A stretch of DNA of 64,000 nucleotides from Sulfurospirillum diekertiae (GTDB taxonomy: Bacteria; Campylobacterota; Campylobacteria; Campylobacterales; Sulfurospirillaceae): positions 2,542,001 to 2,606,000 of the forward strand of contig NZ_CP039734.2 in NCBI RefSeq assembly GCF_011769985.2, read 5' to 3'. Of the stretch, positions 1-25,581 are shown one piece after another. Position 1 is the first letter of the stretch; every line of letters starts with the position of its first letter. Made by a program: the position numbers and the translations under genes. A model generated the notes under the pieces. The model was not told the DNA's origin. It worked only from the letters and a program-made list of their open reading frames with translations, and made no database searches.

Positions 1-1
1 T

Positions 2-454
2 ATGCATGATATTGGGAAAATAGCTATCCCCGATCATATTCTAAATAAACCAGGAAAACATACCAGTGACGAGTTCAAAGTAATGCAAACTCACGCACAA
101 ATTGGTTATGAAATCCTAAAAAACTCAAATAGACCTATTTTAAAAACAGCAGCTATTGTGGCAGCACAGCATCATGAAAAATGGAATGGGAGTGGATACC
201 CAAATGGTTTAAGCGGTGATAATATTCATATTTACGGAAGAATTACTGCTGTTGCAGATGTCTTTGATGCACTAGGAAGTGATAGAATTTATAAACAAGC
301 ATGGGGTGATGAAAGCATATTTGCCCTATTAAAAGAAGAAAGCGGTAAGCATTTTGACCCAAAGCTAATAGAGATCTTTTTTAACCATTTAAATGAATTT
401 CTATCTATTAGAAATTCCTTAAAAGATTGTATGAATCATCACAATTCCATATAA
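2..454 (+). CDS. HD-GYP domain protein, C-terminal part (cut by window edge)
   Basis: This is the C-terminal half of an HD-GYP cyclic-di-GMP phosphodiesterase-type domain. The visible frame opens with HDIGK, which supplies the His-Asp metal ligands, and continues with the ILxKPG and MxxH segments. The signature HHEKWNGSGYP follows at about residues 58-68, then RITAVADVFDAL. The usual Asp before GSGYP is Asn here. The true start lies left of base 1, so the Met at base 2 is an internal residue and any sensory or receiver domain is out of view. It stops at TAA (452-454). The family hydrolyses c-di-GMP; activity of this copy is inferred. Confidence 0.85.
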   Translation: MHDIGKIAIPDHILNKPGKHTSDEFKVMQTHAQIGYEILKNSNRPILKTAAIVAAQHHEKWNGSGYPNGLSGDNIHIYGRITAVADVFDALGSDRIYKQAWGDESIFALLKEESGKHFDPKLIEIFFNHLNEFLSIRNSLKDCMNHHNSI

Positions 455-509
455 AAAGGCTTTATCCTATGATGTTTTTCAAAAAATATAAGGTACCACA
501 GGTGTATCA

Positions 510-1466
510 ATGAATATTTTTAAATTTTTGTTATGTTTATGCCTGTGCACCTCAATATCATTTGGTTCAATCTTTAATTTTTCAAAAGACAGCCAATATG
601 TTACGTTGAAAGAATTAAAAAAAAATGGTCCATCAGCTATAGAAATTTATGTGTCGCTACTCAAGCTTGAGATTATGAGAGCCGCACAAAAAAAGCATAA
701 AAAAGAAACATTTGCATTAGCTTTAAAATTAAATCATGAAATAAAACAAGTACTAGAGGAAGAATTAACACCTAATATCACTCAAGAAACATTAGATCAA
801 CTCAAAAATGAATGGAAAATTTCTGCTTCCAAAGACCAGAAATTGTTGGCAAAGACATTGTTTCGATCTAACAATGCTAGCTTGTTTCATGCTCCTAAGA
901 ATAAAAAAGATATTTTTTGGATAGCGGATTATATGAAATTTCCAATTTATGATATCGCACGGAGTTCTCAATTTTCAGCAGAAACCAAGCAAAAACAATT
1001 CATGTCTAGTCCGGTTCTAAGTTATAATAATATACTGCAAGATCGTAAGGAGCAGACAGAAAACGCTCTTTTAGCTAAATATAACACCAATTTTACAACA
1101 TTAAGCCAAATTGCGACTGTAATGTACAATAGAAATTCTTTTATGGATGAATTTTTTGTAATGTATTTATCATTTTTATATACGGTGGTTAATCAATTCC
1201 CCATTTTTTTATCTATTATCATAATATTATGGTTAACCCCATTGGTAAATAAATTAAATGGATCAGGTGATACAACAGTGGCGATAAAGTTCAATAGATT
1301 TATCATAAATATGTTATTCGCAATACTCGGACTAATTGTGATAATTTTTTCTTTGATGGCTTTAGGCGATATTTATGAGAGTTCTTGTCACTATATTTGT
1401 AGGAATTATCTTAGCCCCATTACTATTATTTTCTTTTTTATTTGGATTAAGTTTTTCAACAGATAG
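510..1466 (+). CDS. Unknown membrane protein with signal peptide
   Basis: I do not recognise this 318-residue protein. It starts with a hydrophobic leader (about residues 4-20, FKFLLCLCLCTSISFG). A soluble lysine-rich stretch of about 190 residues follows, then two or three C-terminal hydrophobic helices (about 225-245, 262-287 and the last 15 residues). It overlaps the next reading frame (ATG 1375) by 92 bp. The tail after about residue 287 may be spurious, with the real product continuing in the other frame after an indel. It is first in a run of four or five unknown membrane genes in the same direction. The start is the only early ATG, with a weak AGGTG upstream. Confidence 0.55.
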   Translation: MNIFKFLLCLCLCTSISFGSIFNFSKDSQYVTLKELKKNGPSAIEIYVSLLKLEIMRAAQKKHKKETFALALKLNHEIKQVLEEELTPNITQETLDQLKNEWKISASKDQKLLAKTLFRSNNASLFHAPKNKKDIFWIADYMKFPIYDIARSSQFSAETKQKQFMSSPVLSYNNILQDRKEQTENALLAKYNTNFTTLSQIATVMYNRNSFMDEFFVMYLSFLYTVVNQFPIFLSIIIILWLTPLVNKLNGSGDTTVAIKFNRFIINMLFAILGLIVIIFSLMALGDIYESSCHYICRNYLSPITIIFFFIWIKFFNR

Positions 1467-1782
1467 TTTTATCTTTTTTGAAGATTCTTCTATTGGCGTT
1501 ATTATCACAGAAATAATTCGATATAAATTAATTGAAATGGGACTTGATATTGAGCTAAATCATGAGCTTTTGTGGTTTTGTATTAAGCTTTTCGTGCTTC
1601 TTGTAACATCTAATAAAATATACTTTGCAATTTCGATGATTGCTAATTATTTTAGTGGAATAAGAAGATATAAACATTTTTTTGCTACAGGTGGGGTCTT
1701 TTCACTCTTTATTATTATGTATATATCTGATTCCAAACATCTCGTTGCGTTATTTGAAATCTGTAAAAGGTATTTTGTATGA
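1375..1782 (+). CDS. Unknown multi-helix membrane protein
   Basis: This 135-residue protein is mostly hydrophobic. It has a strong N-terminal helix (about 2-24) and two more near residues 68-88 and 103-118. The ATG at 1375 sits inside the end of the preceding frame, directly after an in-frame TAG (1363-1365), so the frames cannot simply be joined at this point. The stop (TGA 1780-1782) overlaps an ATG at 1779 in the pattern ATGA, typical of coupled translation into the next gene. No known family is recognised. An alternative is that this is the C-terminal part of the previous gene displaced by an indel. Confidence 0.5.
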   Translation: MRVLVTIFVGIILAPLLLFSFLFGLSFSTDSFIFFEDSSIGVIITEIIRYKLIEMGLDIELNHELLWFCIKLFVLLVTSNKIYFAISMIANYFSGIRRYKHFFATGGVFSLFIIMYISDSKHLVALFEICKRYFV

Positions 1783-1919
1783 GTCTCATTTTTCTCTATT
1801 TAGGTGTAGTATTTTATATTTTTATATTTGATGTCGAAATTGAATACCTCTTTTTTGTATACATATTTGACAGCCTTGGTTATTTCTCCTTTAAAAAATA
1901 TCAAAGTGAGCAATTTTAA
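1779..1919 (+). CDS. Short ORF, probable N-terminus of the next membrane gene
   Basis: This 46-codon frame begins at an ATG that overlaps the upstream stop (ATGA). It encodes a hydrophobic segment (SLIFLYLGVVFYIFIFD) followed by a short polar part, and ends at TAA 1917-1919 right after a TTTT run. The neighbouring frame continues with matching membrane-protein character. The likely native gene is therefore 1779-2433, split by a single-base indel near 1905-1917. It could instead be a separate small protein. Confidence 0.4.
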   Translation: MSLIFLYLGVVFYIFIFDVEIEYLFFVYIFDSLGYFSFKKYQSEQF

Positions 1920-2433
1920 CTTCAAAGAGATAGAAAGTCATTTTCTACACATTTTGCTATTCAGTGCACTTTTTTTATTTTTATATGGATTTCAAATGTT
2001 GTATTATGAGAACTTCCAGATCAATCGACTTTTATTTCATTTTAACTCTGATATCGTGCCGGATATTTTGGAAAATACAATTTCTTTTTATAAAGAATGG
2101 ACTCCAAAACTTTTTGATAATTCATTGATTGACCTTATCTGTACTGTTATTTTCAATCTTTTTTTGATAGTTATAAAAATAATAGGATTAGTTATTGCTA
2201 TTCCTATTGTTGTGTGTTCAATCATATACATGATTTTTATTGGAGGGTTTATAGCATTAATTAATTCTATAATTGCTGTTATTATTATTGCCTTAATGCT
2301 CTACCCAATTATTTTTGCTAATAAAAACATTATGAATATTGTTGATAAAGACGAGTTGAAATATGGACAGTTTTTGAAAAATTATATTGAAATTAGTAAA
2401 ATTATCTTATTTTTTATCTTTGTTGCTATATAA
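1831..2433 (+). CDS. Unknown polytopic membrane protein, probably frameshifted at its start
   Basis: This frame of about 200 residues has hydrophobic helices near residues 38-58, 100-125, 127-160 and at the C-terminus (IILFFIFVAI). The nominal start (TTG 1828/ATG 1831) has no ribosome binding site, and the preceding bases read better in another frame from ATG 1779. The listed start is therefore likely an artefact of a frameshift near 1914. It ends 27 bp before the next gene. Function is unknown. Confidence 0.5.
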   Translation: MSKLNTSFLYTYLTALVISPLKNIKVSNFNFKEIESHFLHILLFSALFLFLYGFQMLYYENFQINRLLFHFNSDIVPDILENTISFYKEWTPKLFDNSLIDLICTVIFNLFLIVIKIIGLVIAIPIVVCSIIYMIFIGGFIALINSIIAVIIIALMLYPIIFANKNIMNIVDKDELKYGQFLKNYIEISKIILFFIFVAI

Positions 2434-2460
2434 AAATTTATTTTGGTGGAAAGGGTTTGC

Positions 2461-4050
2461 ATGGAACATCCAAACTTATTACAATCGATTGTTGTTAAAG
2501 AAAATTTTACTCCAGATAAGTTTTTATTTATTAATCCATCTTTGTTTACAAAAGAAAAAGACCAAAAAATGCTTATGAAAAGCATCAGTAGCCTTGATCA
2601 TGTTGGCTGGGAAGATGTGGTTTTATTCATTACAGCAAATAGTAGTTCAAAAAATGTTTCTGTTATTTTAACTGAAGAAGGAATACACACAAGCAATGGC
2701 GGGTTTTTAGCATTTTCAGAGATTGAAAGTGTAAGATCTTCATGGTTTTTTAAAACTATAACTTTTAATGGTAAAACTTACAGTTTACAACAACTTAGTG
2801 CCTCCAATGTAGTACTCTTAGCTTCCATTATTAAAAAATATATTGATGCAAAATCTTCAGCCCTTGATATTAATATAGACCAACAAGAACTTATCAATAA
2901 AGCGAAGGAGTTTAATCAGCATAAAATGCCATTATGGAAAATCCTATTGTTTTTGATGATTTTTGTTCCAATAGGAATGGGGATTTTTGGTGTAATTAAA
3001 GATAAATACCATCAAGAAGAGTTAGCTAATGAACGAATACAAAAAGAACAAGCTATCAAAAAACAAAAAATAGACATACTTGAAAAAAAGCTTGAAGCAT
3101 CTGTTGAAATGCAAACCTTACTTGAATACAAACAGCTTAAAACACTTTCAACATTATACTGGATTATTGATGAAGATAGTGAACTTAAAAAAAGTATTGA
3201 CATATACAAAGCCAAACAAGACTTCACGCATGAGGAGGATAATACCTTTTTCTTTGGACTTTTTGGTAAAAAAATTAATCGCCCTATACCAAAATATGGA
3301 TATATCTTTGTTTACGATGATAAGATGATTTATAACAAGAATACGTATGCGGTCAAAAAAGAAGAATTACAAAACTTTGCGAACATTGTTTTTGATCACA
3401 CCAAGCAAGTTAGTCTTTCAAAGTTTTTAGATTCTACCTCTGTTAACATTACTAAATTGGAAAAAGAAATTCACAAAGTGCCTGAGAGCAATTCCAATGA
3501 ATTTAAACAAATTTATGCTTCTTCATCGTATCTAGGGTTGATTCAAAGTATTAAAGATCGCATAGAAAAAAACTTTATAGAACGTTTTATATCCTCACTC
3601 AATTCTACGGATATTTTGTGCATAGCGGCAGTATTATTTCTTCTATTTTCATGGAGATCTGAGGTTAGAAAAATAAGATCAAATCCTTTAGGGTATATTG
3701 CAAATATGTTTAATCCTTTTTCATCAAGGAGTGCTAAACCTACCGCCAATTCTTCTAATTATCAAGAAAAGAAAGAAGCTCCTAAACAAGAAACAGTTAC
3801 TAAAGAAGAATCCGCTGTAAAAGATAGGGAAGCTAATTTTAAATGCCACAAAGATTATGGATATGATTATTTTTATGTTGATTGGGATAAAAAAGAGTGG
3901 TATTCTCACAATAGCTGGAGCGGTCATTGCAATGATTATGAGGGGAAATTTTCAAGTGAAGCTGATCTTAAGGTGAAAATTGCAAAATACATGAGCAAAA
4001 TCGACGAATTTTTCTTTGAAAATCCTGGAAAATGGAATTGTAAACTATAA
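2461..4050 (+). CDS. Unknown membrane-anchored protein with N-terminal PH-like region and coiled coil
   Basis: The ATG at 2461 is chosen because GGAAAGGG lies 5-13 bp upstream; a longer frame exists from a TTG at 2443. The first ~145 residues contain a stretch (VILTEEGIHTSNGGFLAFSE) reminiscent of bacterial PH-like domains. A transmembrane helix follows (WKILLFLMIFVPIGMGIFGVI, about 158-180), then a Glu/Lys-rich coiled coil (about 185-225) and a soluble region. A second helix (ILCIAAVLFLLFSW, about 384-398) leads to a linker rich in Glu and Lys. The tail of about 75 residues carries three Cys and many Trp/Tyr. It closes the membrane-gene run. No function is assigned. Confidence 0.65.
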   Translation: MEHPNLLQSIVVKENFTPDKFLFINPSLFTKEKDQKMLMKSISSLDHVGWEDVVLFITANSSSKNVSVILTEEGIHTSNGGFLAFSEIESVRSSWFFKTITFNGKTYSLQQLSASNVVLLASIIKKYIDAKSSALDINIDQQELINKAKEFNQHKMPLWKILLFLMIFVPIGMGIFGVIKDKYHQEELANERIQKEQAIKKQKIDILEKKLEASVEMQTLLEYKQLKTLSTLYWIIDEDSELKKSIDIYKAKQDFTHEEDNTFFFGLFGKKINRPIPKYGYIFVYDDKMIYNKNTYAVKKEELQNFANIVFDHTKQVSLSKFLDSTSVNITKLEKEIHKVPESNSNEFKQIYASSSYLGLIQSIKDRIEKNFIERFISSLNSTDILCIAAVLFLLFSWRSEVRKIRSNPLGYIANMFNPFSSRSAKPTANSSNYQEKKEAPKQETVTKEESAVKDREANFKCHKDYGYDYFYVDWDKKEWYSHNSWSGHCNDYEGKFSSEADLKVKIAKYMSKIDEFFFENPGKWNCKL

Positions 4051-4219
4051 GTTAGTCAATTATCATAATTTAAAAGAATTCTAGAGTATGTACCACTACT
4101 AGATAATTAAACGATAAAGTCATCTTTGGTGATGGTAAACTCATTTTTTCATAACACTGAGCCGTAAAAACTAATAAAATATTTAGGTCACTTAGATTTG
4201 TTTTGTTTATAGCTCTACT

Positions 4220-4227
4220 CTTATATA
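4220..4227. repeat. 8-bp target-site duplication, left copy
   Basis: CTTATATA directly outside the left inverted repeat matches CTTATATA at 5563-5570. Eight base pairs is the usual duplication length for IS256-family elements. Confidence 0.85.
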
Positions 4228-4253
4228 GGGAGCGTTAGAAATTCCGTGTCAAC
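4228..4253 (+). repeat. IS left terminal inverted repeat (26 bp)
   Basis: It begins GGGAGCGTTA and ends CGTGTCAAC. It pairs with the reverse complement of 5537-5562 with mismatches at positions 2, 5, 11, 13 and 17. Confidence 0.85.
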
Positions 4254-4280
4254 TTGGTAAAATAATATCAAGGATTGACA

Positions 4281-5499
4281 ATGGAAGAACAAATCGGGTT
4301 TGATTTCAATGAGATATTGGAACAATACAGAAGAGGTAAGAGACTTACAGGCAAAGATGGGCTTTTGGCTCCACTTATTAAACAACTCACAGAAGCAGCA
4401 CTTGAGGCAGAGGTTGAATCACATATTGCCAATGATGTTTTAAGTGGTAATCGCAATCGAAAAAATAGTGTCAATAAAAAGACCATTAAAGGGACAAGTG
4501 ACGGATCATTTGAGCTTGAAACTCCAAGAGATCGAAATGGTACATTTGAACCCCAAATAGTTAAAAAACATCAAACAACTATTTCAGATGAGATCGAAGA
4601 AAAAATACTTTCAATGTATGGTCTTGGAATGAGCTATACAGATATATCATCTCACATTGAATATTTATCAGGTGTCAATTTCAACAGCAACCATCAGTGC
4701 CATTACCGATAAAATCATTGACAAAGTGAAATAATGGCAAGCTCGTCCACTAGATAGTATGTATCCCTTTGTGTGGCTTGATGCCATACACTATAAAATC
4801 AAAGATGGTGGGAAACATATCTCTAAAGCAGTTTATAACATCCTAGGTGTTGGGATGGATGGCAAAAAGGAGATACTTGGACTCTATCTATCAGAAAACG
4901 AAGGAGCCAATTTTTGGCTCTCTGTATTGACTGATTTGAACAACCGAGGTCTTAAAGATATACTCATCGCTTCAGTTGATGGATTAAAAGGCTTCCCAGA
5001 AGCCATTAAAACCATTTTTCCAAAAACAGAAGTGCAACTGTGTATTATCCATCAAATACGCAATTCAATGCGTTATGTAGCTTCTAAAAACCATAAAGAA
5101 TTTATGAAAGATCTTAAATGTATTTATCAAGCGACAACCAAAGAATTAGCAGAAGATGAACTTGTAAAATTAGATGAAAAATGGGGTAAAAAATATCCTA
5201 TCGTGATTCAATCTTGGCAGAATAAGTGGGAAAATTTATCGGTTTATTTTAAATACCCTCCTGAGATTCGAAAAGTCATATACACCACCAATATCATTGA
5301 ATCTGTACATCGCCAATTTCGCAAACTCACCAAAACAAAAGATGCTTTTCCTAATGAAAATTCACTTTTGAAATTACTCTATATGGGTATTAAAAATGCT
5401 GAGAAAAAATGGACTATGCCTGTGTGGAATTGGAGTTTAACCCTTTTCTAACTGGCTATATTCTTTGAGGGTAGATTGGATAATGAACTTAAAATTTAA
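4281..5499 (+). pseudogene. IS256-family transposase, inactivated
   Basis: The start is ATG 4281 with AAGGA 6 bp upstream. Three lesions are visible. The frame shifts near 4675-4680, where the expected STATISAITDKI segment moves one frame over. An in-frame TAA at 4732-4734 lies just before WQARPLD. A second TAA at 5449-5451 lies before LAIFFEGRLD, which runs to 5499. The conserved blocks are otherwise preserved: VWLDAIHYK with the first catalytic Asp, SEGANFW, DGLKGFPEAI with the second Asp, CIIHQIRNS, and the NIIESVHRQFRK segment with the catalytic Glu. It is clearly transposase and non-functional as read. Confidence 0.92.
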
Positions 5500-5536
5500 G
5501 TTTGGCTGTGATAGGATTTCTCCTATCAGATTTTAT

Positions 5537-5562
5537 GTTGACACGAAATATTTAACGGTCTC
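5537..5562 (-). repeat. IS right terminal inverted repeat (26 bp)
   Basis: The reverse complement begins GAGACCGTTAAATATTTCGT and ends GTCAAC. It is the partner of 4228-4253. Confidence 0.85.
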
Positions 5563-5570
5563 CTTATATA
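5563..5570. repeat. 8-bp target-site duplication, right copy
   Basis: CTTATATA matches the copy at 4220-4227 and defines the outer edge of the element. Confidence 0.85.
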
Positions 5571-5732
5571 AAAATATTTTGCAAATTTTTTAGTCCATAT
5601 TTTTATATCATCATCTTTTTTGCCTCCATCTGTCCATTTCAAGCTTCTAATGTTCACAGCCCTGCTTATATATAAAGTATACACATTGTATATATACTTT
5701 AACTCATAAGTGGGGAAATACGAAAAGATACT

Positions 5733-6860
5733 TTACAAAACGATTCTATAACCTACATTTCTCCCAGCAGTTCCTTCAATCTGCTCGATACACCCAAACT
5801 CCAATAAATCTACAATATCTCGTGATGCTGTTGTTGAAGCAGTATCGGTAATACTCATGTATTTCTTCTTACTCAAATTCCCTTTGAAATTCTCTATGCC
5901 TATATCTAAAATAAAGTTTAACACTTTGATCTGTCTAGCATTAAGTGGTTGATCTCTATGTTTATCCCAAAATTTCGTTTTAAAAACAATATGATTAAGC
6001 CTGCCTTTTGCATCAAGGAGTGCTTGATAAAGCGTATTTAAAAACCATTCACACCAAAAAGTAATATCAAGATGATTATCCACCTTTTTAATATACCCAG
6101 TTGTGTATTCAAGTGCAGAATAGTAAGCTTTTTTATTCTCATTAATGGCACTTGACATAGAGTAGAGTCTTGAGATTTTAGAGTTTTCAATATTGGATAA
6201 CACTAAATCAGTAATAGCCCTTGTGATTCTTCCATTACCATCATCAAAGGGATGAATAATAACAAACCATAGATGAGCAATACTGGCTTTGATAAGGCTT
6301 GGTTTTTCAGTATTAAACCATTCTAAAAAGCGTTGCATCTCTTTGTCTAAAGCTTGCCGTGGTGGTGCTTCATAATAGACAACTTCTCGTCCAATTGCAC
6401 CACCTACAATTAGCATGGTCTCTTCACCCCTAAAGGTCGCTGTATTAATCTTACGTAATCCACTATATCCTTTAGGAAACAGTGCATTATGCCAGCCAAA
6501 GAGTCTCTCCAATGTTAAATCTTTATCATAGTTCGTATTGGCATCAATCAGAATTGCAACGAGATTATCTGTTGAATCAATAATCTTCTTATCATCGATC
6601 TCTTTCAATCCAAATTTCTTAGCAATAGAAGCTTTGACACTATCACGATTAAGTATTTCTCCTTCGATGGCAGCAGTACTTAGTGTTTCATTTAGCAAAG
6701 CATCACATTGTCTTTGAAGAATGGTATCTTTACTCATTGTTTGCGTAAGAGCAAGAAGATAGCCTTGCTCCATAGAGATCTTTTGAAGTAACTGTTCTAG
6801 CCTCTCAAAATTGTAAGTAAAATGTGGATAATTATTGTATTGCCAAATCCATCGTTTCAT
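5733..6860 (-). CDS. Fic-domain AMP-transferase (class II, self-inhibited)
   Basis: Fic proteins transfer AMP (or another nucleotide part) from a nucleotide to a protein side chain. This 375-residue protein has the Fic core motif HPFDDGNGR at residues 203-211 with catalytic His203. An inhibitory motif of the S/T-xxx-E-G type lies upstream at residues 62-67 (TAAIEG), placing it in the class with the inhibitory helix N-terminal to the core. The aromatic N-terminus (WIWQYNNYPHFTY) matches the N-terminal domain common in these proteins. The last ~75 residues look like a winged helix (ARQIKVLNFILD, SITDTASTTASRDIVDLLE). It is a single gene on the minus strand between the IS and an ATPase gene. Confidence 0.9.
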   Translation of the reverse strand: MKRWIWQYNNYPHFTYNFERLEQLLQKISMEQGYLLALTQTMSKDTILQRQCDALLNETLSTAAIEGEILNRDSVKASIAKKFGLKEIDDKKIIDSTDNLVAILIDANTNYDKDLTLERLFGWHNALFPKGYSGLRKINTATFRGEETMLIVGGAIGREVVYYEAPPRQALDKEMQRFLEWFNTEKPSLIKASIAHLWFVIIHPFDDGNGRITRAITDLVLSNIENSKISRLYSMSSAINENKKAYYSALEYTTGYIKKVDNHLDITFWCEWFLNTLYQALLDAKGRLNHIVFKTKFWDKHRDQPLNARQIKVLNFILDIGIENFKGNLSKKKYMSITDTASTTASRDIVDLLEFGCIEQIEGTAGRNVGYRIVL

Positions 6861-6875
6861 AGTTGTATTCCAAAG

Positions 6876-6919
6876 TGGTTTGATTAGATGGTATAATCAT
6901 ACCATAAATGGTTCGATTA
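6876..6919. promoter_or_regulatory. Repeated 11-mers and inverted repeat upstream of fic
   Basis: The fic start (6860) is preceded by TGGTTTGATTA (6876-6886), the inverted repeat TGGTAT-AATC-ATACCA (6889-6904), and TGGTTCGATTA (6909-6919). The three units share TGGT....AT. They are placed where an operator would lie. Binding by the winged-helix tail of the Fic protein itself is a guess. Confidence 0.45.
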
Positions 6920-6965
6920 TTTATATTTAATCGTTTCCTTATAAACCTCTTTTTTTTCATATTAA

Positions 6966-8207
6966 CTAATATAAAAATCCAAAGAGCCATAATGGGATTT
7001 TGTACCCAATGCCTATTTCTAAATCATCACTCACAACATAAGAATCAGGGGTGTCTTTAATTTGACTAAAACCCTTCTTTTTACCACCCACTTCAAATGT
7101 ATATTTCTCCTCACAGTAAAAATCTCCACTTTTACCAGCAAAGATACCATCATCACTAAGGCTTCGTTTGATTTTATAATAATTGTCTACTTGATTTACA
7201 AAGAAAGTTTCTCTCAAATTCCCAATATCTGGCTCTTTCGTGTACATTAAATTTGGATTGGCTAGATAAATCTTTTCTGGTTTATCAATAGACTTCATGG
7301 CTAAAGCGTTTCGCATCAAAAGCTTAATAAGCCCTGCGTCATCTAGTTTTGAAAGATACTCTTTTAATGTTCTATCATCGGTGATATCTGCTGCTTTTTT
7401 CATATCACTCATATTGGGTTCAAACGGTACGCTTTTGATAATAATAGAAAGTAAGGTTTTGATTTTTTTAATACTAGTGCCATTGAGTTTTGGATAGACA
7501 TAGAGTAGGTCACTCTCAATGGAGACATTGATATTCTGTTGAAGTGTTTGTAAGAAAAGCGTTGTATTGGGCATTGATAAATAGTAAGGATAATAACCGT
7601 ATTTGAGATAATTTTTAAACAAAGGGATAATCTTATGCTCTTTTTGTTCAATCTGTTTTTTAATCTCTGTTGCTAACTCTACATGCTTTTCTAAAACATC
7701 TTGTAACCTATATGGGCTAAATTCAAAACCATAGTGCAATTCTAAAAATTCTCGAAAGCTCATTCCCACCATTGTATAGACGATAGCTCGTCTGCTGAGA
7801 TCATGGCTACCTTGATTGATTTGTAAAGCCGAACTTCCTGTAGCAATAATTTTAAGTTCACCAAAACGGTCATAAATATTTTTAAGCTCTGCTGACCAAG
7901 AGTTATATTTGTGAATCTCATCAAAGCATAGTAGCTTTCCACCATTTAAAACAAACTCTTCTGCAATCTCTGTCATGCTAAATTGGGCGGTGTTTTGAAT
8001 ATCATCGAGGTTAACATACAAAGCTTCATGCTCTTTATAATACAAGCTCATATATTGTGCTATGGTCGTTGTTTTACCAATACCTCTTGCTCCAACAATA
8101 ATAGAAAGCCTATGTTCTAATGGCTGTGTTGTTAAAAAATAACGCTTATATACTTGGTTATTGAGTGCTATAAATTCACGACTTTTAATAAATAGTTCTT
8201 CTAACAT
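6966..8207 (-). CDS. AAA-type ATPase with DUF4143-like C-terminus
   Basis: This 413-residue protein has a Walker A motif GARGIGKTT (residues 39-47), a Walker B motif LLCFDE (92-97) and a sensor-like IIATGSSAL (120-127). This is the AAA_14 plus DUF4143 layout common in AT-rich accessory DNA. The C-terminal half contains helical segments and a nuclease-like beta stretch, YKIKRSLSDDGIFAGKSGDFYCEEKYTFEVGG. The family has no settled function. Its position between fic and a tRNA-derived att-like site fits island cargo. Confidence 0.85.
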   Translation of the reverse strand: MLEELFIKSREFIALNNQVYKRYFLTTQPLEHRLSIIVGARGIGKTTTIAQYMSLYYKEHEALYVNLDDIQNTAQFSMTEIAEEFVLNGGKLLCFDEIHKYNSWSAELKNIYDRFGELKIIATGSSALQINQGSHDLSRRAIVYTMVGMSFREFLELHYGFEFSPYRLQDVLEKHVELATEIKKQIEQKEHKIIPLFKNYLKYGYYPYYLSMPNTTLFLQTLQQNINVSIESDLLYVYPKLNGTSIKKIKTLLSIIIKSVPFEPNMSDMKKAADITDDRTLKEYLSKLDDAGLIKLLMRNALAMKSIDKPEKIYLANPNLMYTKEPDIGNLRETFFVNQVDNYYKIKRSLSDDGIFAGKSGDFYCEEKYTFEVGGKKKGFSQIKDTPDSYVVSDDLEIGIGYKIPLWLFGFLY

Positions 8208-8220
8208 AACTTATCCTCAT

Positions 8221-8232
8221 GTTTTATAAAAC
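8221..8232. promoter_or_regulatory. 12-bp perfect palindrome upstream of the ATPase gene
   Basis: GTTTTATAAAAC lies 14 bp upstream of the ATG on the minus strand. A TATAAT-like hexamer follows further upstream (reverse complement of 8234-8239), and GAGGA precedes the start. It is a plausible operator. Confidence 0.4.
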
Positions 8233-8423
8233 AATTATACATCAAATTTATATGTAACACAATACATATAAATAACTTCTAAATTATCTCTCTCTCTTTT
8301 TCTTCCAACAACCATCGCAATAATAATTACGATAATTTCATTTTTTCATTTAGTTAAGATAGAGAGATATTTATTTATAAATATCTTCTTATTAAGTTTA
8401 GTATAGTTTATAAGAGAATAGGT

Positions 8424-8517
8424 GCTAACCCACTGCTTACTTACTGCTAACAATCTTATAAGCATCTATTTTAAGGGCTTTTCTTCACTGCTTACATGAT
8501 GTCAACACACTGCTATA
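8424..8517. repeat. 11-bp phased degenerate direct repeats
   Basis: The core GCTWAC/GCTATA occurs at 8424, 8435, 8446, 8490 and 8512, with flanks of the form CACTGCTWACA. The spacings 11, 11, 44 and 22 are all multiples of 11, so the copies face one side of the helix. No open reading frame covers them. Confidence 0.55.
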
Positions 8518-8592
8518 AAATTTATGTGTGTTTCTTTGTCTATGTTTTTGAGGTTAAAAAATTAAATTTATGAGGTATAAAAAGATAGAGAT

Positions 8593-8623
8593 TTTAGTGC
8601 CTAAATGGTGCCTTTTTAGTGTA
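8593..8623. repeat. Short direct repeats around GTGCC next to the att-like site
   Basis: TTTAGTGCC (8593), AAATGGTGCC (8603) and TTTTTAGTG (8613) follow each other at 10-bp steps about 60-90 bp from the tRNA fragment. They resemble arm-type integrase sites by position only. The rest of the 8208-8971 gap holds no gene I can support. Confidence 0.3.
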
Positions 8624-8682
8624 TTTTAATAGACGCTAATGATGATGAAGATGCCTATTTTAGGACATTAACGGTTACTAAA

Positions 8683-8710
8683 AAGAATTCGAGTCTCTTT
8701 ATCCGCACCA
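8683..8710 (+). other. tRNA 3'-end fragment, probable island attachment site
   Basis: The bases read as T-stem AAGAA, T-loop TTCGAGT, T-stem CTCTT, acceptor strand TATCCGC, discriminator A and CCA. One T-stem pair (A-C) is mismatched. No matching 5' half (GCGGATA start) exists upstream, so this is not a full tRNA gene. Such 3' fragments are left where an integrase inserted an island into a tRNA gene. Its orientation predicts the intact tRNA and the integrase to the left, outside the window. Confidence 0.6.
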
Positions 8711-8885
8711 TCCCTTTATTAGGGGCTTTCAAACAAATTAAAATCTTCAAATTTTTTTACTCGTTAGCCATAAATTACTAAAATAATTAAATATCCGTGT
8801 ATGTTAAAAAGCTTATATGCCTAGAAATAAACTTCATTTAACATTAGATGCCTCATTCCATTAAAGTTAGTTAACATTTCATTGA

Positions 8886-8926
8886 TATAATACCGTCACA
8901 GATACCAAACCTTTATTTTCGTTTGG
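8886..8926 (+). promoter_or_regulatory. Putative promoter and operator of the mdt-like operon
   Basis: TATAAT (8886-8891) is followed by the inverted repeat CCAAAC-N10-GTTTGG (8905-8926), 45 bp before the mdtA start. No good -35 hexamer is seen. The repeat sits where it would block early transcription or fold in the leader RNA. Confidence 0.4.
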
Positions 8927-8971
8927 CAAAAGCGTGTCAAAGACTCTTTATTTTACAAAAAGGTCAATTTT

Positions 8972-10195
8972 ATGTCATTTTCCACTCCTTCAGAAACCAT
9001 CAAAAATCAAAAATCATCTCTCAAAAAATGGGCTCTCGTCCTCATCATAGGCACTCTTATTGGCATAGCAAGTTATTTTACTGTTTTTAAAAGTCAACCT
9101 AGCACAAGCAATGATCCTAGAAAAGCCTTTGCTACACGAGCGATGTCCGTTTCAACGGCTCCTGTTCAGCAAGGTGCTATTAAAATCTTTTTTCAGGGTC
9201 TTGGAACCGTCATTCCTTTGTCCAATGTCGTTGTTAAAAGTCGTGTGGATGGGCAATTAATGGATATTTTATTCACCGAAGGACAAATGGTTAAACAAGG
9301 CGATGTTCTTGCAAAAATTGATGCAAGAAGCTTTGAAGTACAGCTCAAACAAGCGCAAGGGCAACTGTTGAAAGACCAAGCGCTCCTTGAAAATGCACTG
9401 ATTGATTTAAAGCGTTATGAAGTGCTTTTGCAGCAAGATTCTATCTCCAAGCAAGTTTTAGACACCCAAACAGCCCTCGTGCATCAATACCAAGGGACGA
9501 TAAAAGTAGACGAAGCCTCCATCGACAGCGCTAAACTGCAACTAGACTACAGCACGATTACAGCACCTACGAGCGGACGAATAGGTCTTCGCTTGGTCGA
9601 TAAAGGCAATATGATCCACGCCTCCGATACCACAGGCTTAGCGGTGATTGCGCAAATCAATCCGATTTCAGCCACCTTTACCTTACCCGAAGACAAAGTT
9701 CCTGCCATCACCCAAGCTTTACACGACACGAAAACACTTGAAGTTGAAGCGTACGATCGAAGTGACTCCATACTCATCGCCAAAGGGCACCTTGCCAGTA
9801 TGGACAATCAAATCGATACCGCAACAGGCACACTCAAATTCAAAGCAGAATTTGATAACACTGAGAACAAGCTCTTCCCCAATCAATTTGTTAACATTCA
9901 TCTTTTAGTTACAACGAAGCAAAATGCACTGTATGTTCCCAGTGCAGCCATACAACACGGCTCGCAAGGTAATTTTGTTTACCGTGTCAAAGAAGATCAA
10001 ACGGTGAGTGTGCAACAGGTTAAAATAAGCTCTACCCAAAATGGCAATTCGATCATTGAAGAGGGCTTAAACCTGAGCGACATCGTTGTAGTCGATGGTG
10101 TGGATAAATTGCGTGAAGGAAGCAAAGTTGACATGAACGCCACGAAAGAAACGCCTTCAAAAGCTTCTCGTACTAAAAACGATACGCAAAAATGA
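8972..10195 (+). CDS. mdtA: RND efflux periplasmic adaptor, MdtA-like
   Basis: This membrane fusion protein would link the inner-membrane RND pumps encoded next to the outer membrane factor at the operon's end. It has an N-terminal membrane anchor (about residues 19-37) and a lipoyl-type half motif ([26 protein letters not shown]). A coiled-coil hairpin (about 115-180) leads to [16 protein letters not shown]. The region [21 protein letters not shown] and the stretch [13 protein letters not shown] closely follow E. coli MdtA as remembered. The start has AAAAGG upstream, and the stop overlaps the next start (ATGA). Confidence 0.9.
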
Positions 10196-13100
10196 ACCCT
10201 TCTCGCATCTTTATTTTAAGGCCTATCGCAACATCGTTGGTGATGCTTGCTCTCTTATTAGCAGGCAGTATCGGCTATCGCATGCTCTCATTATCGGCAT
10301 TGCCTGAAGTTGATTACCCGACCATTCAAGTCGTCACGCTTTACCCAGGGGCGAGTCCTGATGTCATCACCTCTTCGATTACGGCTCCATTAGAGAGACA
10401 ATTTGGGCAAATGCCAGGACTCAATCAAATGTTATCCACCAGTTCGGGCGGGTCTTCTATTATTACGTTGCAGTTTGATCTCAAATTGGCCTTAGACGTT
10501 GCCGAACAAGAGGTTCAAGCGGCCATCAATGCCGCTACATCTATGTTGCCAACCGATCTGCCCACGCCTCCTATTTACAACAAAGTCAATCCTGCGGATA
10601 CGCCCATTTTAACCCTTGCCGTGACTTCTAAAACCATGCCACTGCCTGTGGTACAAAATTTGGTCGATACGCGTATTGCTCAAAAAATTTCACAATTAAG
10701 CGGTGTGGGGTTAGTCAGTTTAAGTGGAGGACAAAAACCCGCTGTTCGTATCCAAGTTAACCCCAAAGCGTTATCCTCTTATGGCATCTCTTTGGAGACG
10801 CTACGAACCATCGTCACTAGTGCTAATGTCAACCAAGCTAAAGGCGGATTTGACGGTCCTAAAAACGCCTCGACCATCGATGCTAATGATCAACTGAAAT
10901 CTGCCAAAGAGTATGAAAATATTATTATCGCCTACACAAACGGCAGAGCTATTCGCCTTACCGACGTTGCAACCGTCATTGATGACGCTGAAAATGTACG
11001 TTTGGCGGCATGGAAAAATACCACACCTGCTATTTTGATCAATATTCAACGCCAACCTGGCTCCAACGTGATCGAAGTCGTCGATCGTGTCAAAAAACTT
11101 CTCCCTCAACTGCAAGAATCCTTACCCAATGCGGTGGAAGTTTCACTGCTCACGGACCGTACGACAACCATTCGTGCTTCGGTTCAAGATGTCAAACAGG
11201 AGCTCATCTTAGCGGTTATTTTGGTGGTGATGGTCATCTTTGTTTTTTTACGCAATATCCCTGCGACGTTAATTCCAAGCGTTGCCGTACCCCTTTCATT
11301 GGTCGGAACATTTGGGGCAATGTACCTTTTGGGCTTTAGCTTGAACAATTTAACGCTGATGGCGCTGACGATTGCCACAGGATTTGTTGTCGATGATGCT
11401 ATTGTCATGATTGAAAATATCGCACGGTACATTGAAGAGGGAGAAAATCCCTTGGATGCAGCGCTCAAAGGCTCGAAACAGATTGGATTTACCATCATCT
11501 CTTTAACCATCTCACTTTTGGCGGTTTTAATTCCACTTGTTTTTATGCAAGATGTCGTTGGAAGACTGTTTCGTGAATTTGCCATCACCTTGGCTGTTGC
11601 TATTTTGATTTCAGCATTTATTTCCTTAACATTGACACCGATGATGAGCGCTAAATTGTTGGGTAAAAAACCGATGAATGAGCAGGGTAAATTTTACCGT
11701 TACAGTGGCGCTATCATTGATGCGATGATTCAAGGCTATGCCAAGATGCTCACATGGGTTCTTGATCGTCAAAAAATGATACTCACCATTGCTGTGTTAA
11801 CCATGTTTTTAAATGCCTTGTTGTACGTGTACATTCCCAAAGGATTTTTTCCCGTCCAAGATACGGGTGCTATTCAAGGGATCACCGAAGCACCACAAGC
11901 CATTTCCTTTAGCGCTATGGCACAAAAACAGTGTGAGCTTGCCGATAAAATCTTAGAAAATCCCGATATCGAGAGTATTTCCTCTTTTATCGGCGTTGAT
12001 GGTGTGAATACCACACTCAATAGTGGACGCATTCTCATCAACCTTAAGCCCCATGATCAACGTCAACACAATGCGCAAGAGATCATTCAAGCACTTCAAA
12101 CGAAGCTTCATGATGTAGAGGGCATTACGCTTTACATGCAACCCATTCAAGACTTGAGCCTTGAAGATAGGGTGAGTCGAACTCAATACCAATTTACCTT
12201 AGAGAGTGCCAATGCCAAAGACCTTGAGACATGGACACCCAAAATTATCGAAGCGCTCCATCAGCTTCCACAATTAAGAGATGTTGCAAGCGATCAACAA
12301 GATCAAGGACTTCAAATCTACGTCGATATTGACCGCTCGACCGCAAGTCGTTTGGGCATTAGTGTTGCGACCATCGATGCGGCACTCTACAATGCGTTCG
12401 GACAACGTTTAATCTCAACCATTTACACACAAACCAGCCAATATCGCGTTATTTTGGAAGTAGAACCTCGGTATCAAATGGGACCTGGTGCGCTTGAAAA
12501 CCTTTACGTCACGAGTAGCACGGGGGTGAGCATTCCACTCAGTGCTATCGCCCATACCAGCGAGCGCCAAACGCCTTTAGTCATCAATCATCTGGATCAA
12601 TTTCCGACCACAACCATTTCATTTAACCTTGCACCCAACGCCTCTTTGGGCGATGCAACAGAGGCGATCCAACATCAAAAAGATACGCTTGGGTTACCCC
12701 CTAGTATGGAATTACGCTTTCAAGGAGCGGCGGCGGCATTTCAAAAATCACTGACCAATACGTTACTTCTTATTCTTGCAGCCATTGTGACTATGTATAT
12801 TGTTTTAGGTGTTCTATACGAAAGTTATATCCATCCTCTTACCATTCTTTCAACACTTCCTTCTGCGGGGGTGGGAGCTCTTTTGATGCTCTTATTTACC
12901 AAAAATGATCTGGACATTATCGCCATTATTGGTATTATTTTATTAATTGGTATCGTTAAAAAGAATGCCATTATGATGATTGATTTTGCCCTTGAAGCAG
13001 AACGTCATCAAGGACAATCACCACGAAATGCCATCTATCAAGCCTGTTTATTGCGTTTTCGTCCTATTTTAATGACCACCTTAGCCGCACTTTTTTCAGC

Positions 13101-13275
13101 GATTCCCTTGATGGTCGGAACAGGCGTTGGCTCTGAATTAAGACATCCATTAGGGCTTGTAATGGTGGGAGGATTGCTCGTAAGCCAAGTGTTAACCCTG
13201 TTCACGACACCCGTCATTTATCTCTTTTTTGATCGTTTGGCTACGCGATTCAAATCTTTACATGTAAAGCATTAG
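10192..13275 (+). CDS. mdtB: RND multidrug efflux permease, MdtB-like
   Basis: This 1027-residue inner-membrane proton-driven pump subunit is of normal RND length. Diagnostic blocks include [31 protein letters not shown]-type text near residues 60-75, [14 protein letters not shown] with the proton-relay Asp pair near residue 401, and [14 protein letters not shown] near residue 921 with the TM10 Lys. The sequence follows E. coli MdtB more closely than AcrB. MdtB and MdtC work as a heterotrimer, which fits two adjacent non-identical pumps. A TTTACATGTAAA palindrome forms part of the last codons (Leu-His-Val-Lys). Confidence 0.93.
13257..13268. repeat. TTTACATGTAAA palindrome, copy 1 (inside mdtB end)
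   Basis: This is a full 12-mer in the context AAATC-/-GCAT, read as Leu-His-Val-Lys three codons before the mdtB stop. It is the first copy in the window. Confidence 0.9.
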
Positions 13276-13277
13276 CC

Positions 13278-16200
13278 ATGCATCTCAGCGCCCCTTTCAT
13301 CGCAAGACATGTCGCAACAACACTGTTAACGATTGGTATTGTTTTAGCAGGCGCCCTTGCGTTTGGCTTGTTGCCCGTTTCTCCTTTACCACAAGTGGCT
13401 TTCCCGACGATTTCTGTCTCGGCCTCTTTACCAGGTGCAAGCCCTGAAACGATGGCAGCGACGGTCGCAACGCCTCTAGAGCGTAGTCTTGGGCGTATCG
13501 CTGGGGTAACGGAGATGACCTCATCCAGTTCGATGGGGTCTACTCGCGTCACCTTGCAATTTGATTTGGATCGCGACATTAACGGTGCGGCACGCGATGT
13601 TCAAGCGGCCATTAATGCCTCTTTATCGCTTTTACCTACAGGTATGCTCAGCAATCCAACGTACCGAAAAGTCAATCCTGCCGACGCTCCGATATTGATC
13701 CTCTCCATGACATCTGACACCCTGACACAAGCGCAAATGTATGATGCGGCTTCAACCATTTTAGCGCAAAAACTTTCACAGGTTGAGGGTATCGGACAAG
13801 TCATTGTAGGAGGTAGTTCTCTGCCTGCGGTACGGGTTGAAATCAATCCCTCAAGCCTCAACCATTACGGCATTAGTTTTGAAACACTACGTACAAGCAT
13901 CAACGCAACCAACGCCAATCGCCCCAAAGGCACGGTGGAAGACGCTGAACACCATTGGCAAATAGGGGCAAACGATCAAGCCAAAAAAGCCGCAGATTAT
14001 AGGCCTCTTATCGTTTCGTATCACAATGGAGCACCCGTTTTACTCCAAGATGTTGCAACCGTGATCGATTCCAACCAAGATTTGCACAATGCAGGCTCGG
14101 CAAACGGTAAACCTTCGGTTCTACTCATCTTATTTCGCCAGCCCGATGCCAATATTATCCAAACGGTCGATGCAGTCGTAGAGTCACTGCCATGGCTCTC
14201 CTCATCCATTCCTCAAGGAATCGACTTAAAAATTGCAATGGATAGAACGCCCACCATTCGTGCATCACTTCATGAAGTCGAGCGAACGCTTATTATTTCT
14301 CTTTTTCTTGTGATTGCCGTTGTCTTTTTATTTTTGCGTAATTGGCGTGCGGCGTTAATCCCCAGTGTTGCAGTACCCGCTTCGCTGATAGGGACATTTG
14401 CCATCATGTACTTGCTTGGCTACAGCCTTGATAACCTCTCCTTGATGGCCTTGACCATCGCCACAGGATTTGTCGTGGATGATGCTATCGTTGTTTTGGA
14501 AAACATCTCCAAAAAGATGGAACAAGGCTTGAGTGCTTTTGAAGCAGCCCTTGCGGGGAGTAAAGAGGTTGGCTTTACCGTCTTATCGATGAGCTTATCG
14601 TTGATTGCAGTTTTCTTACCCATTTTACTGATGGGAGGCATTATAGGGCGTCTGTTTAGAGAATTTGCAATCGTACTCTCCATTGCCATTATCATTTCAC
14701 TAATTGTTTCACTGACAACAACACCGATGATGTGTGCCTATTTACTCAAAGCTCCCGAAAAAAAACAGGGTCGGGTAGCTGAGCTCAACGAAAGAGTGTT
14801 TACCAAAATTTTAAACGCGTATGAGCGCTCTTTGGCATGGGCGATTCGCCACTCAAAGTTGATGCTCGCCCTCTTTTTTACGACGATTGGCATTACCATT
14901 GCTTTATACATCATCATTCCTAAAGGGTTTTTCCCTCAACAAGATACGGGACGGATTATAGGGGGAATTCAAGCGGATCAATCTATCTCGTTTCAAGCCA
15001 TGTCTCAAAAACTGAGTACGTTTGTCTCCATTGTCAAAGCCGATCCTGCCATTGAAAATGTCATTGCCTACACAGGAGGACAACAGGCCAATAGTGGGCG
15101 AATGTTCATTAGTCTCAAGCCTTTGTCGGAACGTAAAATTTCGGCCGATAAAGTTATTGCGAGACTGAGAGGTAAACTAGCCCACGTTCCAGGTGCCAAT
15201 CTGTTTTTAGTTCCCGTACAAGATATCCGAATCGGAGGAAGGCAATCAAATGCACAATACGAATACACCCTTCAATCCGATGACTTAAGCACTTTACGCG
15301 AATGGGAGCCCATCGTTCGTAAAACATTGATGCAACTTCCCCAAATTATCGATGTGAGCAGTGACCAAGAGATTAAAGGCTCCCAAACAAAACTGGTAAT
15401 CAACCGTGATGCGGCCTCAAGACTGGGCATTACCGCAAGTATGATTGATGCCGTTTTAAACGATTCTTTTGGACAACGCACAATCTCGACCATCTATAAT
15501 CCTCTGAACCAATATCGTGTGGTGTTGGAGGTCGATCCCAAATTTTCGCAGTATCCTAACGCCTTAGATTCGGTCTATATCATTACCAGTGATGGCTCAC
15601 AAGTACCCTTATCAGCTTTTAGTCATTATGAGCCTTCACTCACCTCTTTGGGGGTTAACCACCAAGGACAATTTGCCGCCGCAACACTCTCGTTCAATCT
15701 TCCCCTTGGCGTTTCGCTCTCTGAAGCCTCCGATGCAATCACTTCTGCGGTTGAAAAATTGAATTTACCCGTTTCAATTCACGGAAGTTTTCAAGGTAGC
15801 GCCAATGCCTTTAAAGCGTCCCTTCAGAGCCAACCGCTGTTAATCTTAGCTGCCATTTTAACGGTTTACATCGTACTGGGTATTTTGTATGAAAGCTATA
15901 TTCACCCACTTACCATTCTTTCTACTCTGCCTTCTGCGGGCGTGGGTGCCCTGCTCGCCCTCATGGCCTTTCATACGGAATTTAATATCATCGCGCTTAT
16001 AGGTGTCATTTTACTCATCGGTATCGTCAAAAAAAATGCCATTATGATGATCGACTTTGCCATTGCTGCGCAAAGAAATGAAGGACTATCCGCAAGTAAT
16101 GCTATTCAAAAAGCGTGTAGTTTGCGTTTTAGACCTATTATGATGACGACAATGGCAGCCCTTTTAGGCGCGATCCCTTTAGCCATAGGATTTGGAGATG

Positions 16201-16343
16201 GGGCAGAATTACGCCAAGGGCTCGGTATTTCTATTGTAGGAGGCTTGATTTTAAGCCAATTATTGACGTTATATACGACACCCGTCATTTATCTGTACGG
16301 TGAAAAAATTCGTTCGAAATTTTCCAAGACACCTCAACCATGA
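13278..16343 (+). CDS. mdtC: RND multidrug efflux permease, MdtC-like
   Basis: This is the second RND subunit of the operon (1021 residues), starting 2 bp after mdtB. The proton-relay pair is in [14 protein letters not shown] near residue 400 and the TM10 Lys is in [14 protein letters not shown] near residue 917. The N-terminus [19 protein letters not shown] and the block [21 protein letters not shown] resemble MdtC. It differs clearly from its neighbour, so the pair is not a recent duplication. Substrates are unknown; in E. coli MdtBC exports bile salts and novobiocin. Confidence 0.93.
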
Positions 16344-16357
16344 AAGGTTCATTGATT

Positions 16358-17761
16358 ATGCGATACTCACTTTTATCCATACTGCTTATCACCAATACAC
16401 TCTTTATAGGGTGTGCTCAGCAAAATACACCTTCTGTACCAACAGATGTTGCTATTCCACAAGCTTACCATGAAGAGGGAAATTGGAAAAAAGCAACGCC
16501 GAATGACAATGCGGTTCGAGGAGCGTGGTGGGAGATGTATCACGATGCAGAATTGAGTACTTTAATGGAAGAGTTATCGCACTTCAATCCATCCATTAGC
16601 AAGTACCAAGCCTTATACAAACAAGCTTTAGCGGTTATGGAGTCTTCACAAGCATCCCTATTCCCAACCTTGAGTGTTGGAGCAAACGTCACAAGATCTC
16701 AAACCTCTGCGGGGAGTAATTCAACGAACAAACAAAGACGCTCAACCGATTATAAACTCCCACTTCAAGCATCATGGACACCTGATATTTGGGGAGATAC
16801 GCATCGTTTAGTGGATGCCTATTCCCTCAGTGCGGAAGCGAGTTTGAACGATTTGGAAGCCGCAAAGCTTTCAGCACAAACACTTTTGGCACAAAATTAT
16901 TTCCAGTTGCGAAACGTGGATGCACAAGAGGCATTTTTACAACAAACACTTGAAGCCTACGAGCGATCCCTTCAGATTACCCAAAATCAATACCATGCAG
17001 GCATCGTAACCAAAAAAGATGTCATCACAGCGCAAGCCCAGATAAAAAGTGTTGAAGCGCAAACAATTGATCTGCATGCGCAGAGGCAACAGTTAGAACA
17101 TGCCATTGCCGCATTAATCGGCAAAACGCCTTCAGAATTTTCAATACACGCTAATCCAAAGCTGCCTATTGTTCTGCCCGATATTCCTTATTCTTTACCT
17201 TCGGAACTTTTGGAGCGACGACCCGATATCGCGGCTGCGGAACGTAGGATGAAACAAGCCAATCTTCAAGTCGGTATTGCGCAAGATGCATGGTTTCCAA
17301 CTTTTAATCTGACCGCTTCAAGTGGTTATGAAAGTAACGTACTTTCTTCGTTGATTTCCAAACCAAACCTTATCTGGGCAATCGGTGGAGCACTGTCTCA
17401 AACTGTTTTTGATGGAGGTGCGCGTGAGGCAACTTTGAAGCAAATGCAAGGTGCTTATGAAGCCAATATTGCGACGTATCGACAAAGTATCTTAACCGCT
17501 TTTCAACAGGTTGAAGATGCCCTTGCTACCCTTGAAACACTTTCAAGAGAAGTAAAAGTACAACACGAAGCCGTTGACTTGGCGCAGCAAGCATTTGATT
17601 TCAATATGTATCAGTATCGACAAGGTATTGTGAACTATACGAGTGTTGTTGTAGCGCAAACATCGCTTTTAAGCAATCAAATCACCGTTCTTAACCTTCA
17701 AAATAGACAACTTCTGGCGACCATCTCATTGATCTCTGCCTTAGGAGGTAATTTTCAATAA
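16358..17761 (+). CDS. Outer membrane efflux lipoprotein, NodT/OprM type
   Basis: This TolC-family channel would complete the MdtABC tripartite pump. The start ATG 16358 gives a compact lipoprotein signal (MRYSLLSILLITNTLFIGC) with GAAAGG about 12 bp upstream. An earlier ATG at 16340 overlaps the mdtC stop (ATGA) and would add six residues. Family features include the paired helical repeats, SELLERRPDIAAAERRM near residue 285, and SQTVFDGGARE in the second repeat. E. coli mdt uses the distant TolC, so this operon carries its own exit duct. Confidence 0.9.
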   Translation: MRYSLLSILLITNTLFIGCAQQNTPSVPTDVAIPQAYHEEGNWKKATPNDNAVRGAWWEMYHDAELSTLMEELSHFNPSISKYQALYKQALAVMESSQASLFPTLSVGANVTRSQTSAGSNSTNKQRRSTDYKLPLQASWTPDIWGDTHRLVDAYSLSAEASLNDLEAAKLSAQTLLAQNYFQLRNVDAQEAFLQQTLEAYERSLQITQNQYHAGIVTKKDVITAQAQIKSVEAQTIDLHAQRQQLEHAIAALIGKTPSEFSIHANPKLPIVLPDIPYSLPSELLERRPDIAAAERRMKQANLQVGIAQDAWFPTFNLTASSGYESNVLSSLISKPNLIWAIGGALSQTVFDGGAREATLKQMQGAYEANIATYRQSILTAFQQVEDALATLETLSREVKVQHEAVDLAQQAFDFNMYQYRQGIVNYTSVVVAQTSLLSNQITVLNLQNRQLLATISLISALGGNFQ

Positions 17762-17904
17762 TAAACATTAAAAAGTGTTCATTTTGAATTCATCTAAATC
17801 TTCTACTATATCATCAAAGATTCTTGTTAAAAAGAACGTGACAATAACTCATTAACGTTTATGTTAAGATCAATTTTTTGAGCATGATTTTTGGGGAGTA
17901 TGAT

Positions 17905-18285
17905 GTGAATTGGAATCAACTAAAACGTTTTGTTATGAGTGGTGGTGGAGCGACACTCCTTCATCTTTCCAGCATGACTTTGTTAGTCTGGTTAGGTGCC
18001 AATGCCATTTTTGCAACTGCTTTTGGAATGGTATTAGGGGCTGTGGTTAACTACATTTTCCAATACTATTATACGTTTGATTCCAATACGCAACACCACA
18101 CATCGATTTTCAAATACTGCATGAGCGTCGCCCTATCGTTTGCAAGCAATATGCTTCTTTTTACACTCTTCTATACGCTCTTGCATTTCAATGCGTTTGT
18201 ATCGCAGTTCCTGACATCCGCACTCGTGGCAATACAAAATTATTGCATTTATAAAAAATTTGTTTTTCTAAGGAATGTACAATGA
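17905..18285 (+). CDS. GtrA-family membrane protein (lipid-linked sugar flippase type)
   Basis: The GTG at 17905 is chosen because GGGGAG ends 6 bp upstream; a longer frame with poor signals runs from TTG 17878. The protein (~126 residues) has four membrane helices and the GtrA hallmarks LKRFVMSGGGATLLHL at the start and NYIFQYYYTFD near residue 50. GtrA proteins are thought to move undecaprenyl-phosphate-linked sugars across the inner membrane. It overlaps the GtrB-type gene by 4 bp, so the two are probably co-translated. Confidence 0.85.
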   Translation: MNWNQLKRFVMSGGGATLLHLSSMTLLVWLGANAIFATAFGMVLGAVVNYIFQYYYTFDSNTQHHTSIFKYCMSVALSFASNMLLFTLFYTLLHFNAFVSQFLTSALVAIQNYCIYKKFVFLRNVQ

Positions 18286-21562: not shown

Positions 21563-21599
21563 AAACTTAAAATAATGAAAATATGAAGAAAAGTGAGCG

Positions 21600-22175: not shown

Positions 22176-22345
22176 TATAAAAGACTCTATTTACCTTCAT
22201 TCAATATTTGCAGAATCAGACAATGAAAATGGTCAATTATGCTATCCAACATAAGGTATTTAGATTTATACTATCGAATAGATTGGATTATCTACGTGTG
22301 AAGCATCATTTGCTTTCAACTCTTGTTACGAAAAAGGAGATAGAA

Positions 22346-23392: not shown

Positions 23393-23415
23393 ACAATACC
23401 ATCGAGGAGAGGCTG

Positions 23416-23904: not shown

Positions 23905-23985
23905 ATATTTAATCCAATCTAAAAAAAATAGTTAGTTGTCGCTTTGTCTTTGTTGTTAAAGCTAGCTGGTATAGAGTAACTAAAG

Positions 23986-24000
23986 AGATAATTATTATCT
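23986..24000. promoter_or_regulatory. Fur-box-like operator upstream of aldehyde dehydrogenase
   Basis: AGATAAT-T-ATTATCT is a 7-1-7 inverted repeat 30 bp before the ATG. On the other strand it contains GATAATAATTATC, identical to the site at 26427-26441. It matches the TGATAATnATTATCA Fur consensus at 13 of 15 positions. Confidence 0.5.
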
Positions 24001-24030
24001 TTTAACTCTATTATTAAGGAAGGTGCAAAA

Positions 24031-25527: not shown

Positions 25528-25538
25528 ACCGCAAGAAC

Positions 25539-25569
25539 GCATGGGCTTTTACGCCCATGCACTTTTTTT
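25539..25569 (+). terminator. Rho-independent terminator
   Basis: The stem GCATGGGC/GCCCATGC has a 6-nt loop and is followed by AC then seven T. It sits between aldehyde dehydrogenase and DUF779, so the latter may depend on read-through. Confidence 0.85.
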
Positions 25570-25581
25570 AAAGGAGCCTTC

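Follow-up and report, generated by a model that had tools for sequence, protein, structure and literature searches.

The closest described systems are the islands at tRNA genes collected in Islander, which are defined by an intact tRNA gene, a cognate 3′ fragment downstream in the same orientation and outside conserved protein domains, and a tyrosine integrase gene inside an interval of 2-200 kb. Exactly this signature marks 3,919 islands, 3,760 of them with 3′ fragments, and 125 tandem arrays (PMC4383910). In ICEKp1, the integrating element displaces the terminator of the tRNA gene; elements of this type at tRNA-Asn move the terminator to their far end, and their integrase gene is co-directional with the tRNA gene and uses its promoter (PMC13023037). 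The window analysed here, a 64,000-nt stretch (G000:C1:2542001-2606000) of the two-contig, 2.78-Mb genome of Sulfurospirillum diekertiae, contains the right end of a textbook genomic island of known kind. Nothing essential separates this island from those of Islander, among which the T-stem/T-loop crossover class and tandem arrays are known; its scar can in addition be placed in a genus-wide hotspot with mixed integrase classes. It shares with the ICEKp1 type the displacement of the tRNA terminator to the far end. Unlike in that type, its integrase gene is convergent with the tRNA gene, with the stop codon 3 nt from the CCA, and no conjugation genes were recognised: the island ORFs scanned, which included part of the small ones, contain no relaxase or type IV secretion domain, and no conjugation module of the kind that defines an ICE.

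The scar was described in an earlier note, made from the letters of the window alone, as a tRNA 3′ end without its 5′ half at 8683-8710. The sequence is as described there, and the exact repeat is slightly shorter, 23 nt at 8688-8710. This repeat, TTCGAGTCTCTTTATCCGCACCA, comprises the T-loop, the 3′ strand of the T-stem, the acceptor strand, the discriminator base and CCA; it is intergenic, and ARAGORN predicted no tRNA in the window. Across all 2.78 Mb of the genome, a search for the 19-nt core that tolerated two mismatches found only two copies, both exact and on the same strand: the scar itself and a copy at C1:2529354, inside an intact tRNA-Leu(UAG) gene. Identity between the copies stops at exactly 23 nt, with both the preceding and the following base differing, and none of 100 shuffles of the window yielded the 23-mer. 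The 23-mer was also absent from the IMG/VR viral contigs, so no viral form is indicated.

The intact tRNA-Leu(UAG) gene (85 nt, G000:C1:2529292-2529376) is the last of a Pro-His-Arg-Arg-Leu array and lies 21.3 kb left of the scar and 12.6 kb left of the window. It starts with GCGGATA, the acceptor 5′ strand that had been predicted for a tRNA left of the window, and ends in the same 23 bases. The integrase predicted on the same side is also present, as a tyrosine integrase gene directly beside this tRNA gene. The interval from CCA to CCA, with its left end at C1:2529377, measures 21,334 bp.

A strain labelled as the same species (G065) lacks the right end of the window's island. On the left, its flank matches at 98.8% identity as far as the tRNA CCA; on the right, its flank is 97.9% identical over window positions 8685 to 22183. 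Between these flanks it carries a different island of 23,157 bp with a 55-nt scar and a different integrase. After both islands were removed in silico, the empty-site joins agreed at 793 of 800 bases. Two congeners (G006 and G012) have empty sites of native type. The comparison with a related strain lacking the island, which the earlier note had proposed, thus found the same flanks around another island. The note's main claim, that an element lying to the left had integrated into a tRNA gene, is borne out: the genome has a tRNA ending in the scar sequence, and the first 8.7 kb are not conserved in synteny.

It is therefore practically certain that the 23 bases are the displaced tail of tRNA-Leu(UAG) and mark the right end of a 21.3-kb inserted element. 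A fortuitous resemblance, or the decay of a tRNA gene without any integration, would fit the missing 5′ half and the negative ARAGORN result, but is extremely improbable given an exact 23-nt identity where shuffles give none and two copies on the same strand and in the right order with an integrase between them; it is refuted by the conspecific strain, in which these flanks surround another island. For the displaced tail, the following course of events can be proposed. A mobile element would have carried a 23-nt copy of the tRNA sequence from T-loop to CCA beside its own tyrosine integrase gene, and the integrase would have recombined this core of the circular element with the 3′ end of the chromosomal tRNA-Leu(UAG) gene. 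Joining of the 5′ part of the host tRNA to the 3′ copy of the element would have restored the tRNA in full. The host's own 23 nt, together with the original terminator, would have been pushed 21.3 kb downstream, to 8688-8737. We infer that the integrase of the island made the junctions.

The integrase gene (L004:880-1911, minus strand) encodes 343 aa with matches to Phage_integrase (E=3.8e-13), Arm-DNA-bind_2 and the phrog_1 integrase (E=5.7e-51), and its catalytic residues R185, K217, R279, H303 and Y313 do not vary when it is aligned with four relatives. Elsewhere in the genus, related integrases have the same convergent arrangement beside other tRNA genes. For a profile search of genome contigs, an alignment of five integrases offered no conserved stretch, and the single protein returned only two distant MAG loci (39-41% identity). 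A 90-aa ORF overlapping the integrase start may encode an excisionase, since it has counterparts beside these distant homologues in two Campylobacterota MAGs. Elsewhere in the same genome, a second integrase with 40% identity (G000:C1:858267-859319, L089) converges on a tRNA-Met gene, for which no distal scar was found within 19 kb. In another congener (L053, G022), an integrase stop codon lies 4 nt from the 3′ end of tRNA-Ala, in the tight convergent arrangement seen in the window's island.

The G+C content of the island is 0.324, compared with 0.418 in the left flank and 0.407 in the core DNA to the right. Its cargo includes a phage-type HTH regulator, a MASE10-HD signalling protein, a split Mutator transposase, a Fic protein, an AAA_14 ATPase, and a type I specificity subunit with a truncated methylase gene (hsdM) beside an IS21 pair and a truncated resolvase. 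Judged from the sequence, the integrase looks intact and the cargo partly decayed. The element may no longer be mobile, because its hsdM, beside an IS21 element, is truncated, its transposase is split and its resolvase is truncated.

Table 1 Features of the window around the tRNA-Leu(UAG) scar (window coordinates)
Position	Strand	Feature	Evidence
1..8687		Right 8.7 kb of the 21.3-kb strain-specific island	Low G+C (0.324 vs 0.41-0.42); unaligned with G065 except the Fic-ATPase cassette
4275..5451	+	Mutator-family transposase, two frames	Pfam Transposase_mut on the first piece; ORFs 4275-4712 and 4759-5451
5733..6860	-	Fic-domain protein (DUF4172-Fic), cargo	Pfam; PADLOC SoFic E=3e-35; 86-93% DNA identity in other tRNA-Leu islands
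6966..8207	-	AAA_14 ATPase, cargo	Pfam; PADLOC PDC-S01; in islands of G011, G014, G016, G065
8463..8687	+	Noncoding right terminus, candidate integrase-binding region	Decayed copy in G014, 76% identical over 246 nt
8592..8612	+	TTTTAGTGCCTAAATGGTGCC, candidate arm-type site	First 14 nt repeated at the left end
8688..8710	+	23-nt att core spanning T-loop to CCA; displaced tRNA-Leu(UAG) 3′ end at the right edge of the island	Exact copy of the intact tRNA 3′ end
8711..8737	+	Displaced terminator-like hairpin of the tRNA-Leu gene, probably of element-borne type, TCCCTTTATTAGGGGCTTTCAAACAAA	Intact form follows tRNA-Leu or displaced fragments in congeners and G065
8711..23404		Block with RND pump, TolC, GtrA, GT2, YdjC, ArnT-like, PAP2; probable older accretion	Aligned with G065 over 8685-22183 (97.9%) and with G015 over 8849-22186 (87%)
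23416..34255		Genus-level core synteny resumes (nucleoside deoxyribosyltransferase-like gene, ALDH, PGDH ... Tex)	Empty-site genomes G006, G012

Across the genus, tRNA-Leu(UAG) is a hotspot where integrases of several classes, scars in tandem and common cargo are found. The initial search of 22 congeners revealed displaced fragments of this tRNA in G002, G004, G008, G011, G013, G014 (two fragments), G017, G018, G020, G021 and G022, in addition to those of G065 and of the genome studied here. Scars of 55-58 nt are mostly accompanied by an integrase at the distal end (class A); the window's element (class B) has the 23-nt scar and the integrase at the tRNA. Integrases of class A and class B are about 20% identical. 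Class-A islands of the congeners and G065 use the same target tRNA as the window's island and share its Fic-ATPase cassette and, in G065, its right flank; they differ in that their scars extend from the anticodon region, their integrase lies distally beside the scar, and a TCCC...AGGG terminator of their own follows the rebuilt tRNA. The locus offers a clean system in which several integrase classes use one tRNA target in one genus, and in which two conspecific strains have distinct islands at one and the same base.

The Fic-ATPase cassette (5733-8278) occurs whole or in half, at 86-93% identity, in islands of G002, G008, G011, G014, G016 and G065. Since this cassette at the right end is common to islands using another integrase class, part of the present island may have come from recombination among islands and not from one insertion. 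A stronger version of this, that the island is a class-A tRNA-Leu island in which a class-B element replaced the integrase and the right end, appears unlikely. In its favour, the cassette adjoins a class-A integrase in G011 and G065, other islands at tRNA-Leu(UAG) have parts of it, and the homology stops sharply at 8276-8280. Against it, both ends of the island are of one type, with the 23-nt core, the integrase abutting the tRNA and a 14-nt terminal repeat, and the tRNA is not followed by the TCCC of a class-A left end. It can also be observed that the Fic and AAA_14 cassette recurs with different integrases at the same tRNA and ends at nearly the same base. In G017 (L045, ~13189-13472), there is no gap between a 39-nt tRNA-Leu fragment and a truncated Fic gene, apparently because the DNA from scar to cargo was deleted.

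On the left, the terminal repeat of the class-B element, TTTTAGTGCCTAAA, lies 33 nt past the tRNA CCA, within the 3′ end of the integrase gene; on the right, it lies 83-96 nt inside the island. Random pairs of 150-nt windows shared 14 nt in only 7 of 20,000 trials. A relic of the right terminus (8463-8710) in G014 is 76% identical, lies 120 nt past a class-A scar, ends in a degenerate tRNA-Leu fragment, and retains the 14-nt repeat except for its last base. The repeat is a candidate arm-type integrase-binding site.

The DNA right of 8711 had been read as native. This holds relative to the island and within the species, as the alignment with G065 shows, but not genus-wide, where the DNA from 8711 to ~23.4 kb is accessory. 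It is missing at the tRNA-Leu site in other congeners except one (G015), in which window positions 8849-22186 align at the same place with 87% identity. In the two genomes without an insertion (G006, G012), the deoxyribosyltransferase-like core gene follows tRNA-Leu after ~80-95 bp. The stretch from 8711 to ~23.4 kb is probably an older accreted element, and 8711 would be its left end because the terminator-like motif found there (see below) probably comes with elements. We treat this step as tentative since no old right-hand scar of the block survives. A somewhat unlikely alternative is that the block is ancestral chromosome lost by other species. Its presence at the same place in both strains of the species and in G015, a G+C content (0.41) equal to that of the core, and the lack of any tRNA-Leu fragment at its right edge all fit such a history. 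Against this, of 22 congeners, only two have a strong match (E<=1e-60) to the pump fusion-protein gene, namely G015 and G010, the latter at 54% and at another place in the genome; the core gene comes directly after tRNA-Leu in G006 and G012 and after the 55-nt fragment, at a similar distance, in G013 and G002; and the left edge of the block bears the TCCC...AGGG motif of element ends.

Between the PAP2 gene and the core gene lies a DUF362-like gene (22208-23392). Positions 22187-23404, which contain it, look like a separate recent insertion because the alignments with G065 and with G015 both leave them out; no scar was recognised. With the island boundary placed at 8710/8711, the true left edge of non-island DNA in the window is now fixed, and a blind reading of a 23-nt scar had predicted the island correctly.

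The bases following tRNA-Leu or its displaced fragment are TCCCTATTTTAGGGACTTTCAAA or close to it in G065 and about a dozen congeners. In G065 the motif after tRNA-Leu reads CCCTATTTTAGGGACTTT, and in the genome studied here a slightly decayed form starts at 8711. The displaced hairpin folds only slightly better than shuffles, and a candidate terminator downstream of the intact tRNA, inside the end of the integrase gene, folds no better than shuffles. Across 23 genomes, 15 of them from the genus, CCCTATTTTAGGSACTTYC was found 14 times when one mismatch was allowed, and controls gave zero. All 14 lie within ~20 nt after a tRNA 3′ end, either an intact Leu-UAG, Leu-GAG, Ser-GCT, Ser-GGA or Phe gene or a displaced fragment. 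Other motif-bearing tRNA flanks belong to the same tRNAs, in a sample biased towards loci chosen for their integrases and the tRNA-Leu locus. We considered whether tRNA-Leu ancestrally had the TCCC hairpin as its native terminator and rejected this, as other native flanks are found at the empty sites of G006 and G012 and on the outer side of the 55-nt scars in G002, G004, G013, G018 and G020. The genome studied here has a second hotspot (G000:C1:2024851-2039270; L113, L090, L092), where an intact tRNA-Ser(GCT) gene (~2039181-2039270) is accompanied by two displaced 3′ fragments 12.8 and 14.3 kb away, both followed by the CCCTATTTTAGGCACTTTC motif.

The elements probably bring the motif with them. 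We tentatively suggest, at a little under even confidence, that tRNA-integrating elements of Sulfurospirillum with different integrases and targets (Leu-UAG, Leu-GAG, Ser-GCT, Ser-GGA and Phe) share a palindromic, terminator-like CCCTATTTTAGGSACTTTC right behind the tRNA 3′ end that they bring. In a short literature search, this shared element-borne motif was the sole part of the locus that we did not find described. If the suggestion is true, CCCTATTTTAGGSACTTTC would act as a spare terminator that travels with the elements and insulates the rebuilt tRNA gene, and this single motif would serve to find element ends, both old and new.
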